NCBI RefSeq assembly: GCF_030697925.1 | Contig: NZ_JAUYOJ010000173.1 | Coordinates: 1-64,000, forward strand | Reading direction: 5' to 3' | Length of the DNA: 64,000 nt | DNA from: Phenylobacterium sp. | GTDB taxonomy: Bacteria; Pseudomonadota; Alphaproteobacteria; Caulobacterales; Caulobacteraceae | Shown: positions 9,603 to 30,040 of the stretch, piece after piece | Numbering within the stretch: the stretch's first letter is position 1 | Layout of the letters: each line of letters begins with the position of its first letter | The notes under the pieces: generated by a model | Database searches by the model: none | Seen by the model: only the letters and a program-made list of their open reading frames with translations | What the model was told of the DNA's origin: nothing | Made by a program: the position numbers and the translations under genes

Positions 9603-11428
9603 GGCAGCTCTCGCTTGCTGCGGATGTGTTGTTCGTAGTCGCTGCGGGCGGCGTTCACATGCGGACGGTCGGAAACCTCGGGGACGGCGACGTCCCACCA
9701 CCAGCCGCCGGCCTCGGTGGTCGTCAGCGGGTCAGTGTCGATGACGACCACATAGGACCGGTCGGCGGCGCGGGCGCGGACCATGGCCGCCTCGAACTCG
9801 CCGAGCGTGGCGACATGCTCGCTGATCGCGCCCAGGCTGCGGGCGTGGGCGGCGAAGTCGATGTCGGGGAGGATCGCGTGGAGACTGTCGACCAGCAGGT
9901 TGTTGAAGCCGGGCGAGCCTGTCGCCTGTTGCAGCCGGTCGATGCAGCCGAAGCCGCGGTTGTCGAGCAGGGCGACGATCAGCTTGCAGCCCATCATCAC
10001 CGAAGTGGCGAGTTCGGAGTTCAGCATCAGATAGGAGCCGTCCCCGACCATGACGACGACCTCGCGGTCGGGCTCGGCCATTTTGACGCCGAGACCCCCG
10101 GCGATCTCGTAGCCCATGCAGGAGAAGCCATATTCGAGGTGGTAGCCGCCCGGCCGCGCCGTGCGCCACAGCTTGTGGAGCTCGCTGGGCAGGCCGCCGG
10201 CCGCGCAGACCACGATGGCGTCCTCGCCCATGGAACGCTGCACCGCACCTATGACCTGGGCGTCGCTGGGCAGGGTTTTGTCGGCGGGGCCGGCGGTCGC
10301 CGCATCGACGGCCGCGGTCCATCCCGAGACATCGGCGGCGATCTCTGGCGCGCGCCAGCCGGCGAGGGCGACCGACAGGGCCTCAATTACCTCCCGGGCG
10401 TCGCCGACGACGGGCTCGGCGCCGTGCTTGTGCGCGTCGAACGCCTGGACATTGACCTGGCACAGCCTGCGGTCCGGGAACAGGCTGCGCGAGCCGGTTG
10501 TGAAGTCCTGCAACCGGGTGCCGACGCCGACGATCAGGTCGGCGTTCGAGGCCGCCTCGTTGGCGGCGCTGGACCCCGTGACACCGATGGAGCCGAGGGT
10601 GTTGGGATGATCCCAGGGCAAGGCGCCCTTGCCCCCTTGGGTCTCCGCGATCTTGAGCCCGGTGGCTTCGGCCAGGGCGATCAGTTCGGTCTCCGCCTGG
10701 CTGTAGAGGACGCCGCCGCCAGAGACGATCAGCGGGCGTTTCGACGCCTTCAGCGCTTCGACGAGGGCGGCGATCTCGCCCGCATCGGCGGGCTGTCGGC
10801 GCGCCTTCCAGAGGCGGCGATCGAAGAATGCGGCGGGATAGTCGAAGGCTTCAGCCTGGACGTCCTGGCAAAAGGCGATGGTCGCCGGGCCGCAGGTGGC
10901 CGGATCCAACATGGTCGCCAAAGCCTTGGGCAGGGCGTCGAGGATCTGCTCGGGCCGGGTGATCCGGTCGAAGAACCGCGATACCGGTCGGAAGCAGTCG
11001 TTGGCCGTGACCGTCCCGTCGCCGAAGGCCTCGACCTGTTGCAGGACGGGGTCGGGGCGGCGGCTCGCAAAGACGTCGCCCGGCATGAACAGGACCGGGA
11101 TGCGGTTCACATGGGCGACCGCCGCGGCCGTCACCAGGTTGGTGGCGCCGGGCCCGATCGAGGTGGTGCAGATCATCGCGCGTCTGCGGCGCATCTGCTT
11201 GGCGTAGGCGATGGCCGCGTGGGCCATGCCCTGTTCATTGTGCGCCCGCCAGGTCGGCAGGACCTCGCGCGACGCATGCAGGGCCTCGCCGATCCCGGCG
11301 ACGTTGCCGTGGCCGAAGATGGCCCAGCAGCCGGCGAAGTAGGGAACCTCGGCGCCGTCGACGACGACGTGCTGGGCGGCCAACCAGCGGACGGCGGCCT
11401 GGGCGGCGGTCAGCCGGATCGTGGTCAT
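9599..11428 (-). CDS. iolD: 3D-(3,5/4)-trihydroxycyclohexane-1,2-dione acylhydrolase, ThDP-dependent
   Basis: A 609-residue thiamine-diphosphate enzyme that opens the inositol-derived ring to give 5-deoxy-glucuronate. It shows the acetolactate-synthase-type fold: an N-terminal ThDP pyrimidine domain (HNEQGMAHAAIAYAK with the conserved Glu), a middle domain (LIVSGGGVLYSQAE), and a C-terminal diphosphate-binding motif VGDGSYLMLNSELATSV. Its ATG at 11428 overlaps the iolC stop (ATGA). The ORF-track start at 11770 lies inside iolC and is rejected. Confidence 0.95.
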   Translation of the reverse strand: MTTIRLTAAQAAVRWLAAQHVVVDGAEVPYFAGCWAIFGHGNVAGIGEALHASREVLPTWRAHNEQGMAHAAIAYAKQMRRRRAMICTTSIGPGATNLVTAAAVAHVNRIPVLFMPGDVFASRRPDPVLQQVEAFGDGTVTANDCFRPVSRFFDRITRPEQILDALPKALATMLDPATCGPATIAFCQDVQAEAFDYPAAFFDRRLWKARRQPADAGEIAALVEALKASKRPLIVSGGGVLYSQAETELIALAEATGLKIAETQGGKGALPWDHPNTLGSIGVTGSSAANEAASNADLIVGVGTRLQDFTTGSRSLFPDRRLCQVNVQAFDAHKHGAEPVVGDAREVIEALSVALAGWRAPEIAADVSGWTAAVDAATAGPADKTLPSDAQVIGAVQRSMGEDAIVVCAAGGLPSELHKLWRTARPGGYHLEYGFSCMGYEIAGGLGVKMAEPDREVVVMVGDGSYLMLNSELATSVMMGCKLIVALLDNRGFGCIDRLQQATGSPGFNNLLVDSLHAILPDIDFAAHARSLGAISEHVATLGEFEAAMVRARAADRSYVVVIDTDPLTTTEAGGWWWDVAVPEVSDRPHVNAARSDYEQHIRSKRELP

Positions 11429-13461: not shown

Positions 13462-14355
13462 TCATGACGCCACGCGCTTGCGTGCCCCTCCGGACGCTAT
13501 CGGCTTGCGCTTTGGTTGAGACGTCGCGAAAGCGAAGGAAATCACCAAGGCTTGGGCAAGGCACATCGACGTCGCGAGCGAGCGGAACTGGCGGATCTCA
13601 GCTTCGCGAACCTGCAGGACTTGCGTCGCCGGCTTGGCCACGGGGCTCACCAGACTGTCACTGATCGCCAGTACGGCCGCCTTCCGACCGACGGCTGAGT
13701 CGATGAGCTGCACCGCTTCCTGGGCATATGGGTGATAGCTGACGGCGATCAGCAGATCGTTGGAGGTGATGGCGTGGACCTGCTGACTGGCCATGCCGCC
13801 GACGTTGTCGATAAAGACGGTCTTCTTATCCACCTGGTGCAGGGAATAGGCGATATAGGCCGCAACCGGGAACGAGCGGCGGAAGCCGGCGACGTAGATC
13901 GTTTCGGCCCTGGTCATAAGATCGACGGCGGCCGATAGGGCCGCGGGGCTGACGGTCTCGCCCAGGTTCTGCAGGGCCAGGCTGTTGCCCTCGATGAACT
14001 CGGCCAGAACCTGGCCGGGTTCGCCCGCCGCCTTGCCGTCGACGGCCCGACTGAACTGTCTGACACGCTCGCCATAGGCCAAGGCCGCATGCCCGGACAT
14101 CAGGCCGTCTCGGAAGAGGCGCTGCATCTGCGTGGCGCCGTCGAATCCAAACGCCTTCGCGAACCTGACGATCGCGGAAGGCTGCACCCCGGTGCGGTCC
14201 GCCAGCACCGCGAGCGTTTCCAACGCCACCGTATTGGGCTCGTCGAGGACGTACCTGGCGATCTGCTTGAGCCGCTTACTCAGCGACTCGTATCGATCCA
14301 GAATCGCCGCCCTCAATTCATCGGCCGTGGTGGGTGTCGTCAGCTTGTCTGTCAT
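13462..14355 (-). CDS. iolR: RpiR/MurR-family transcriptional regulator, probable inositol repressor
   Basis: A 297-residue regulator with an N-terminal RpiR-type helix-turn-helix (about residues 10-85, ALETLAVLADRTGVQPSAIVRFAKAFGFDG) and a C-terminal SIS sugar-phosphate-binding domain (about 130-270, IYVAGFRRSFPVAAYIAY). Such proteins sense phosphorylated sugars; IolR members repress iol genes. The ATG at 14355 (AGGG upstream) starts the conserved HTH region, unlike the ORF-track start at 14571. It sits between iolC and the divergent iolG-like gene, whose shared spacer holds motif copies, so autoregulation is likely. Confidence 0.85.
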   Translation of the reverse strand: MTDKLTTPTTADELRAAILDRYESLSKRLKQIARYVLDEPNTVALETLAVLADRTGVQPSAIVRFAKAFGFDGATQMQRLFRDGLMSGHAALAYGERVRQFSRAVDGKAAGEPGQVLAEFIEGNSLALQNLGETVSPAALSAAVDLMTRAETIYVAGFRRSFPVAAYIAYSLHQVDKKTVFIDNVGGMASQQVHAITSNDLLIAVSYHPYAQEAVQLIDSAVGRKAAVLAISDSLVSPVAKPATQVLQVREAEIRQFRSLATSMCLAQALVISFAFATSQPKRKPIASGGARKRVAS

Positions 14356-27799: not shown

Positions 27800-28209
27800 A
27801 CGAGCCCTATGCCGGCGGCTGCGCCTGCGGCGCGATCCGTTATGAAATCGCCGAGAAGCCGCTTGTGGAAGTCGACTGCCAATGCCGCGACTGCCAGCGG
27901 ATGAGCGGCACGGGCCACGGATCCTATCTGACCTTCCCGAGCCGCGACAAGGTCACCCTCACGGGCCGGGCGGCGCATTGGGATGTGGCCGGCGACAGCG
28001 GCAATGTGAAGACCCACGCGTTCTGCCCAACCTGCGGATCGCCGGTCTATCTGACCTCAGCGGCCATGCCCGACTTCTTCTCTGTGCATGCGGCGAGCCT
28101 CGATGATCCCGGTCGATTCAAGCCCCAGATGGTGTTCTACACCGCGAGTGGCTTTCCCTGGGACCGCCTCGATCCAGCCCTGGCGAAATTCGAGAAGTTG
28201 CCGACCTGA
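27796..28209 (+). CDS. GFA (glutathione-dependent formaldehyde-activating)-family protein
   Basis: A 137-residue zinc protein with the complete GFA cysteine pattern: GGCACGAIRY, DCQCRDCQRMSG and FCPTCGSPVY. True Gfa enzymes promote S-hydroxymethylglutathione formation, but most family members are uncharacterised. It overlaps the membrane-protein gene by 4 bases. Confidence 0.9.
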   Translation: MNEPYAGGCACGAIRYEIAEKPLVEVDCQCRDCQRMSGTGHGSYLTFPSRDKVTLTGRAAHWDVAGDSGNVKTHAFCPTCGSPVYLTSAAMPDFFSVHAASLDDPGRFKPQMVFYTASGFPWDRLDPALAKFEKLPT

Positions 28210-28243: not shown

Positions 28244-28258
28244 GTTCTATGTTTGTTC
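28244..28258 (+). promoter_or_regulatory. LexA (SOS) box, alphaproteobacterial type
   Basis: GTTC-TATGTTT-GTTC is an exact GTTC-N7-GTTC match, the direct-repeat LexA site of alphaproteobacteria. It lies 31 bases before the 2H-phosphoesterase start codon in an otherwise free intergenic spacer, a typical position for LexA repression. Confidence 0.65.
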
Positions 28259-28288
28259 TCACTCAATGCGCGAGGGGAGAACCTGCAG

Positions 28289-28915
28289 ATGAGCCGGGAA
28301 AGGGACGAATCGAGGCGTGACCCCGGCGGCCTTGCGCAGCTCCCGCTAGCCTTCGACCGTCCCGGCCCGCCAATGGCGGCGACCTGGCGCGACGTCCTCT
28401 ATTTTGCGCTCCTGCCGGACGCTGAGGCCATCGCCCGGATCTCCCGTCTCGAGCTCGGGCTGCGGCGGCGTCTCGGCCGGACGTGGCGGCCGTGCGCGCC
28501 TGCCAGGCTCCATCTCTCACTGTTGGGCGTAGCGGCCGGACCGTTCGCGCGCGCCACCGTGCTGGCCGCGGCCTCGCGGATCGCCGCGGCGGTGGCCTTC
28601 CCACCGTTCGAGGTCGTGCTCACCGGGGCCGCCAGCTTCGGCGGCGGTTCGGTGGTCCTCGGTTGCAGCGAGGGCTCGGCCGCCGCCCTCACCGGGCTGC
28701 ACGATCGGCTGAAGGATGCTGGCGAGGACCTCGGACTGAGGCTTGGCGCGCGCGCCTTCACGCCCCATCTGACCGTCGCCTACGACGAGGTTCCGATTCC
28801 GGAGACGATGCTCGACCCGCCGATCGCCTGGTCGGCCCGGGAGATCGTCCTGGTGTCCAGCGAGCAGGGCAGGGGGCGCCACACCCACCTGGGCCGCTGG
28901 CCGCTGGTCGCTTGA
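28289..28915 (+). CDS. 2'-5' RNA ligase / 2H phosphoesterase family protein
   Basis: A 208-residue protein with the two HxT/S motifs of the 2H phosphoesterase fold, RLHLSLLG and FTPHLTVAYD, about 90 residues apart. Members cleave or form 2'-5' or cyclic phosphodiester bonds in RNA or nucleotides (LigT/ThpR). The ATG at 28289 with GAGGGGAG upstream is chosen; the ORF-track start at 28088 lies in the previous gene. The LexA box upstream predicts induction by DNA damage. Confidence 0.85.
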   Translation: MSRERDESRRDPGGLAQLPLAFDRPGPPMAATWRDVLYFALLPDAEAIARISRLELGLRRRLGRTWRPCAPARLHLSLLGVAAGPFARATVLAAASRIAAAVAFPPFEVVLTGAASFGGGSVVLGCSEGSAAALTGLHDRLKDAGEDLGLRLGARAFTPHLTVAYDEVPIPETMLDPPIAWSAREIVLVSSEQGRGRHTHLGRWPLVA

Positions 28916-28975: not shown

Positions 28976-29680
28976 ATGCCGGATCTTTCCGCCTTTCCCA
29001 TCACCAAGCTTTGGCCGGCCAAGCATCCCGATCGTCTGCAGCTTTATTCGCTGCCGACCCCAAATGGCGTGAAGGTCTCCATCATGCTGGAGGAGATCGG
29101 TCTTCCCTACGAGCCGCACCCGGTCGACATCGGCAAGAACGAGAGCTGGAAGCCCGAATACCTGGCGCTGAATCCGAACGGCAAGATCCCGGCGATCATC
29201 GATCCGAACGGGCCGGACGGGGCGCCGCTGGCCCTGTTCGAGTCCGGCGCCATCCTGCTCTACCTCGCGGAGAAGGCCGGCAAGCTGCTCCCGAGCCCGG
29301 CTGCGCGGCGCTACGAGGCCATTCAGTGGGTGTTCTTCCAGATGGCGGCGGTCGGGCCGATGTTCGGCCAGGTCGGCTATTTCAACAAGTTCGCCGGCAG
29401 GGAGGTCGCCGACAAGCGTCCGCTGCAGCGCTATGTCGACGAGTCCAAGCGCCTGCTGGGCGTGCTGGAGAGCCGCCTGGCCGGTCGACGCTGGATCATG
29501 GACGACGACTATTCGATCGCCGACATCTCCCTGGTGGGCTGGGTGCGCAACCTGATCGGCTTCTACGAGGCCGGCGACCTGGTCGAATACGACGCCCTGG
29601 AGCATGTGCCGGTCTGGTTGGAGCGCGCGCTCGCGCGGCCGGCCGTCCAGCGCGGCCTGCAGATCCCCGACCGGTCGTAG
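28976..29680 (+). CDS. Glutathione S-transferase (YfcG/YghU-like)
   Basis: A 234-residue GST with an N-terminal thioredoxin-like domain (YSLPTPNGVKVSIMLEEIGLPYEPHPVDI, LNPNGKIPAIIDP, ESGAILLYLAEK) and an all-helical C-terminal domain. The TPNGVK motif resembles the Nu-class disulfide-bond oxidoreductases YfcG and YghU. It is followed 12 bases later by an ArsC-like reductase gene, so the two may share a thiol-redox role. Confidence 0.9.
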   Translation: MPDLSAFPITKLWPAKHPDRLQLYSLPTPNGVKVSIMLEEIGLPYEPHPVDIGKNESWKPEYLALNPNGKIPAIIDPNGPDGAPLALFESGAILLYLAEKAGKLLPSPAARRYEAIQWVFFQMAAVGPMFGQVGYFNKFAGREVADKRPLQRYVDESKRLLGVLESRLAGRRWIMDDDYSIADISLVGWVRNLIGFYEAGDLVEYDALEHVPVWLERALARPAVQRGLQIPDRS

Positions 29681-29692
29681 GAGAGGCGCGCG

Positions 29693-30040
29693 ATGACCAT
29701 CACCATCTACGGCATCAAGGCCTGCGACACGATGAAGAAGGCCCGGGCCTGGCTGGACGGGCGCGGTGTCGCCTACGCCTTCCACGACTACAAGGCGCTG
29801 GGGATCGATCGGCCGCGGCTGGAACGGTGGATCGGCCAGGTCGGCTGGGAGGTGCTGCTCAACCGCTCGGGGACCACCTTCCGCGCCCTGCCGGACGCCG
29901 CCAAGGTCGGGCTCGATGCGGAGAAGGCCATTGGCCTCATGCTGGCCCAGCCCTCGATCATTAAGCGGCCGGTGGTGGACCTGGGCGAGCGCCTGCTGGT
30001 CGGCTTCAAGCCGGAGATCTACGAAGGGGCGCTGGGCTAG
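29693..30040 (+). CDS. ArsC-family reductase (YffB-like)
   Basis: A 115-residue thioredoxin-fold protein starting YGIKACDTMKKARAWL, with a single Cys near residue 10, and LLNRSGTTFRALP then PSIIKRPVVDLG, the pattern of the ArsC/Spx-related YffB group. It probably works with glutathione as a thiol reductase; arsenate reduction itself is not implied. Likely in an operon with the GST gene. Confidence 0.9.
   Translation: MTITIYGIKACDTMKKARAWLDGRGVAYAFHDYKALGIDRPRLERWIGQVGWEVLLNRSGTTFRALPDAAKVGLDAEKAIGLMLAQPSIIKRPVVDLGERLLVGFKPEIYEGALG

Follow-up and report, generated by a model that had tools for sequence, protein, structure and literature searches.

An accessory 2H phosphoesterase gene behind a LexA box in Phenylobacterium, with a sliding-clamp-binding-like tail in most of its family

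The box and the genes at the locus

The window analyzed here is a stretch of 64,000 nucleotides from Phenylobacterium sp. (contig NZ_JAUYOJ010000173.1). According to the original prediction, an exact GTTC-N7-GTTC sequence, the alphaproteobacterial LexA consensus, lies before a gene of the LigT/ThpR type. Our analysis confirmed this: 30 bases separate the box from the ATG at position 28289, and the encoded protein matches two Pfam families of this type above their cut-offs. The features of the locus are as follows.

28244..28258, + strand: LexA (SOS) box GTTC-N7-GTTC, GTTCTATGTTTGTTC (from the pattern, its genomic rank, and its conservation before the genes of relatives)
28272..28279, + strand: Shine-Dalgarno-like sequence GAGGGGAG, 9 bases ahead of the ATG (read from the sequence)
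28289..28915, + strand: gene for a LigT-like 2H phosphoesterase of 208 amino acids, a second paralogue beside ThpR (from Pfam, AlphaFold2, and Foldseek)
28337..28354, + strand: QLPLAF, residues 17 to 22, a putative sliding-clamp-binding-like peptide (from counts of the tail pattern and the published consensus)
28511..28519, + strand: first catalytic motif HLS, residues 75 to 77 (H invariant in four alignments)
28766..28774, + strand: second catalytic motif HLT, residues 160 to 162 (H and T invariant in four alignments)
28976..29680, + strand: glutathione S-transferase (GST)-like gene, a possible operon partner, 60 bases 3' of the 2H gene
29693..30040, + strand: ArsC/Spx-like gene, which sits next to 2H, with or without a box, in roughly half of the alphaproteobacterial loci examined

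The gene upstream lies on the same strand and stops at 28209, which places the box inside a gap of 79 bases before the 2H ATG. This arrangement leaves no divergent gene to compete for the box, and we therefore assigned it to the 2H gene.

Rank and distribution of the LexA box

How much weight can such a box carry? Taken by itself, the bare GTTC-N7-GTTC pattern is weak evidence because its counts are not rare: three matches in the window versus 1.64 expected, and 128 in the genome (4.8 Mb) versus 54 for the mirrored pattern. With a window count not above chance, the bare 8-base pattern was dropped as a yardstick for the box. The other two matches in the window, at 870 to 884 and 13996 to 14010, have G+C-rich spacers and look like chance occurrences. 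The stricter form GTTC-N6-TGTTC was found 33 times in the genome, versus 7 times for its mirror image.

We then scored the genomic sites with a spacer matrix, for which ten putative SOS sites, the window box not among them, served as the training set. The window box ranked 7th among 111 sites, a rank that serves as a guide and gives no probability, because the ten training sites score themselves; several known sites drop to low scores once they are left out of training. The original prediction had proposed to check whether the box ranks with those of recA, lexA, and imuA. It stood among the sites of imuA-imuB-dnaE2, comM, the nth-like gene, ssb, lexA, and uvrA, and no recA box was identified in the genome (assembly ∼90% complete). 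Sites of the same type precede lexA, ssb, uvrA, the imuA-imuB-dnaE2 cassette, a dnaE-like gene, comM, mmcB, radC, the nth-like gene, and a glycosyltransferase/radical-SAM pair, all of them named from a by-eye reading of translations rather than from a family-library scan.

Two further observations concern other boxes of this genome. The lexA gene itself seems to have two GTTC-N7-GTTC sites, 20 bases apart and on opposite strands (L012 and L013; G000:C33:10008-10022 and 10043-10057). Strong boxes also lie before uncharacterized or glyoxalase-like (VOC) genes that may be further members of the SOS regulon (L001, G000:C6:50486-50500; L002, C9:3834-3848; L019, C42:46431-46445; L033, C138:6972-6986; L036, C165:4396-4410). 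By eye, the gene 5' of the Sphingomonas 2H locus (L208:331-1452, L228:427-1398) resembles the boxed gene of L001.

Is the box kept before the genes of relatives? We gathered the relatives by protein similarity and not by the presence of a box. Family-wide and genus-wide searches placed the accessory 2H family in 28 of 101 Phenylobacterium genomes. The exact box was present within 250 upstream bases in 16 of these 28 relatives, versus 0.11 expected at the rate seen in the remainder of these loci and 0 for the mirrored pattern (binomial P = 1e-31). Such binomial P values overstate the case because the relatives, and hence the sites, are not phylogenetically independent. The nearest relative (L153) keeps the box, within intergenic DNA that can no longer be aligned. 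Among the other alphaproteobacterial orders, the exact box preceded 20 of 23 genes (7 of 10 from the class search and all 13 new ones from the phylum search); the phylum search as a whole gave 13 boxed loci out of 14, and the remaining locus belongs to a genome that had already entered the count as unboxed. The named Mesorhizobium and Sphingomonas loci carried it in 9 of 10 cases.

LexA is reported to recognize GTTC-N7-GTTC in Alphaproteobacteria and CTGT-N8-ACAG in most beta- and gammaproteobacteria (PMC3323433). We found the second motif, often as TACTGTATGAATATACAGTA, within 250 upstream bases of 13 of 17 Burkholderiaceae relatives versus 0.12 expected, in a sample made up of loci from a contig search with a four-relative alignment and from the phylum search. 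Because these relatives carry CTGT-N8-ACAG, LexA control appears to survive across two operator sequences. The box is thus shared well beyond the closest relatives, by many alphaproteobacterial families and, as the other LexA motif, by Burkholderiaceae, and it withstood the refuting condition set by the original prediction, its absence from close relatives.

Twelve of the 28 Phenylobacterium relatives, the genus g22 members in the sample, and many other members of the Caulobacterales have no exact box within 250 upstream bases. Neither LexA motif was found upstream in Dyella and Rhodanobacter (Rhodanobacteraceae), the one GAAC-N7-GAAC match among 43 loci being at chance level. A Xanthomonas-type LexA motif was also looked for before these genes, and none was found. 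On the tree of the family, the boxed label requires 18 changes, and the starred branches force at least 5. These data suggest that LexA control of the 2H family is common and not universal, with gain and loss inseparable on the tree. For the window gene and its family, LexA control is well supported by these sequence comparisons. Two loci have two tandem 2H genes behind one upstream box (L114/L121 in G615 and L115/L122 in G538).

The 2H protein and its N-terminal tail

The window protein scored 54.6 bits against Pfam 2_5_RNA_ligase2 (PF13563; cut-off, 27) and 34.3 bits against LigT_PEase (PF02834; cut-off, 23.3). Its score against the ThpR equivalog TIGR02258 was 40 bits, below the cut-off of 65.7, and a separate gene of the same genome passes TIGR02258 with 141.7 bits and is the true ThpR. 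This ThpR gene is without a LexA box. Because the equivalog cut-off is not reached and a separate ThpR is present, we regard the window protein as a second, divergent 2H paralogue.

An AlphaFold2 model built from 51 sequences (mean pLDDT, 85.6) gave a confident LigT-like fold preceded by a tail that is disordered in the model, with nearly all of residues 1 to 29 at a pLDDT below 50. The best Foldseek matches were entries for Escherichia coli LigT, with 5ldm at an E value of 4.5e-10, a TM-score of 0.67/0.78, and 23% identity. The H of the first motif and the H and T of the second were invariant in alignments A1, A2, A4, and A5, and every boxed Phenylobacterium member retains both catalytic motifs. 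The sequence and the model thus lend good support to a complete 2H active site in a two-lobed, LigT-like fold. The predicted protein had been described as RNA-ligase-like. Its place in the 2H family stands, whereas "ligase" is only a family label; by analogy with the family, the expected activity is the hydrolysis of cyclic or 2'-5' phosphodiesters.

Compared with canonical ThpR/LigT (TIGR02258; PDB 5ldm and 5h7e), the window protein has the same fold and both HxS/T motifs and differs in its score below the equivalog cut-off, its N-terminal tail, and its LexA box. Most family members have 10 to 40 residues ahead of the 2H domain. We scored tails of at least 8 residues for Q-x-x-[LFM]-[FLPGDA] or Q-x-x-[LFM]-x-[LFI], patterns that were drawn up after inspection of the tails, with start codons picked by rule. 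A clamp-like peptide was present in 75 of 108 tails, versus a mean of 10.9 and a maximum of 22 in 2,000 shuffles and 7 for the reversed motif. The same held for the 69 nonredundant tails (41 with the motif; shuffle maximum, 16; reversed motif, 5), in which replacing the Q by other residues gave at most 12 matches. Among the 75 motif-bearing tails, 20 fit Q-x-[SD]-[LM]-[FL]. Examples include QADLF, QSSLF, QLDLL, QFSLF, QLWLPGL, and QTSLPGF.

According to published work, clamp-binding peptides follow the consensus QL[S/D]LF or QxxLF, with QLSLPL of Hda as a tight binder (PMC12309361), and the clamp-binding peptide of ImuB is QLPLWG (PMC10421592). The peptide in the disordered tail of the window protein resembles these peptides and the QxxLF of DNA polymerases, which are of the short Q-x-x-L-F/L/P type; it differs in being carried by a phosphoesterase and in its last two residues, AF where the others have LF or WG, so that QLPLAF is a variant whose final positions depart from QxxLF and whose clamp binding is putative. 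The Mesorhizobium form, QGEFDFG, is also less canonical. Within Phenylobacterium the motif is patchy (5 of 16 boxed members), and the tail is missing from the nearest relative. From the tail sequences, we infer that most relatives of the window protein may bind the DnaN clamp. The unboxed Phenylobacterium members were likewise without the motif (0 of 12 versus 5 of 16 boxed; L078 to L081, L084, L086, L087, L090, L091, L093, L094, and L096).

Possible roles during DNA damage

What could an accessory 2H enzyme do in the SOS response? In the mechanism that we propose, LexA would repress the gene and DNA damage would release the repression, a step well supported by sequence and comparison. The 2H fold, predicted to be catalytically competent, would open 2',3'-cyclic phosphates or related 2'-5' bonds, as expected from its family. 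In most of the family, the disordered Q-x-x-L-F/L/P-like tail may dock the enzyme on DnaN, which would place it at sites of replication or repair. In the last and least certain step, the enzyme might trim termini unusable for ligase and polymerase; candidate substrates are 2',3'-cyclic phosphates left where DNA contains ribonucleotides, or ends of this kind on RNA that is cleaved in the SOS response. Ribonucleotides embedded in DNA are a source of DNA ends bearing 2',3'-cyclic phosphates. Our best explanation as a whole, to which we give roughly an even chance, is a LexA-repressed, often clamp-docked 2H enzyme that trims ends during DNA damage. Given the conserved LexA switch and the clamp-like tail of most relatives, a role in DNA repair is probable for the family. 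The narrower proposal, that an SOS-induced, clamp-tethered 2H phosphoesterase removes blocked ribonucleotide termini (e.g., 2',3'-cyclic phosphate) from DNA, is tentative, and we regard it as possible. If true, the enzyme would be a previously unrecognized proteobacterial DNA-repair factor that lets gaps made or filled in damage tolerance be sealed.

The main rival to DNA end trimming is SOS-induced RNA repair: ribonucleases or toxins activated by damage would cleave tRNA or mRNA, and the enzyme would open the 2',3'-cyclic phosphates on the cut molecules. The tail motif would in this case be incidental or would bind a partner other than the clamp. As the family name of TIGR02258 indicates, the substrates of canonical LigT/ThpR enzymes are RNA 2',3'-cyclic phosphates, and RNA with such ends appears in a LexA-dependent manner in the SOS response of Salmonella (PMC9879122). 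The anticodon nuclease RloC of Acinetobacter is reported to become active upon treatment with an agent that induces DNA breaks (PMC3874168), and radiation induces both LigT and an RtcB-family protein in Deinococcus deserti (PMC5552922). Against this stand a housekeeping ThpR already present in the genome, an RtcB ligase that was not found there (assembly ∼90% complete), and a tail motif that RNA repair leaves unexplained; we consider it a somewhat unlikely account. The original prediction had pointed to RNA or cyclic-nucleotide metabolism. This is kept as a possibility, and the tail found in most relatives points equally to the replication clamp. Of the mechanisms discussed here, degradation of a cyclic or linear oligonucleotide signal, as by phage Acb1 or viral 2'-5' phosphodiesterases, is the least supported. 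It would limit a nucleotide-signaled abortive response or prophage activity during the SOS response, and these enzymes belong to the same superfamily and do occur among the fold matches. Their matches are far weaker than those of LigT, however (E value of ∼1e-4 versus 1e-10), no defense gene was seen in the flanks examined, and searches of PHROG, PADLOC, and phage records gave no match to the 2H protein, so that this reading appears improbable. With Acb1 only a distant fold match and no phage or PHROG match, assignment as an Acb1-type anti-CBASS phosphodiesterase was rejected. A plasmid search returned only two weak partial matches from Paracoccus.

The box could also be explained without a role for the enzyme. 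In the window, the 2H, GST, and arsC genes are close together and codirectional, and ArsC adjoins 2H in about half of the alphaproteobacterial loci, which suggests a single ancestral locus. LexA might chiefly serve the two genes 3' of 2H, GST and ArsC-like, if the three form an operon, with 2H as a passenger. Yet the box persists at 2H genes without these neighbors, in many Alphaproteobacteria and in Burkholderiaceae, whose loci have no adjoining ArsC/Spx-like gene; some arsC-linked 2H genes are unboxed; and in the nearest relative no GST gene separates 2H from arsC. We rejected ArsC or GST as the true LexA target on these grounds, and the passenger explanation is very improbable. Even less probable is a chance box in front of an ordinary 2H gene. 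The bare 8-base pattern is common, but upstream enrichment reaches two to three orders of magnitude in two classes and with two LexA motifs, whereas the controls (mirrored patterns and matches elsewhere in the loci) are close to expectation.

The original prediction called a damage-induced 2H enzyme unusual; such induction does have a precedent. In Deinococcus, ligT lies in a cinA-ligT-recA operon of the DdrO/RDRM regulon (PMC1978522, PMC5552922). Like the window gene, it encodes a LigT-family 2H enzyme under a DNA damage repressor, and it is radiation induced; it differs in its repressor, its motif, and its operon with recA. A relative of Deinococcus LigT from Deinobacterium chartae passes the ThpR equivalog cut-off and the window protein does not, so recruitment to damage control was probably independent in Deinococcus. 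Damage control of a LigT enzyme is therefore already known, and what appears new here is control by LexA and the clamp-like tail. The literature searches for the family together with LexA or SOS yielded the Deinococcus work and otherwise unrelated papers. Neither LexA control of the 2H family in Alpha- and Betaproteobacteria nor a clamp-like tail on it was found in the literature searched, whose coverage was partial, so that an earlier mention of LexA control is possible. The Rtc RNA-repair operon, expressed during the SOS response of Salmonella (PMC9879122, PMC7790460), resembles our best explanation in tying this response to RNA with 2',3'-cyclic phosphate ends and differs in its RtcR/sigma-54 control and its RtcB ligase.

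LexA control in two classes together with the clamp-like tail would give the family a specific, testable role in the DNA damage response. It would also enlarge the SOS regulon by one candidate repair factor, and it points to the boxed genes in isolated strains. Bacterial LigT/2H enzymes have known chemistry and structures, and to our knowledge their physiological role is not yet settled.

The same two-class, two-motif argument was used to place splB in the SOS regulon (PMC3323433), a paper in whose text the 2H family was not found. As for 2H, LexA sites precede splB-like genes in alpha- and betaproteobacteria, and the proteins are unrelated. A boxed radical-SAM gene is also present in the genome of the window (L031).
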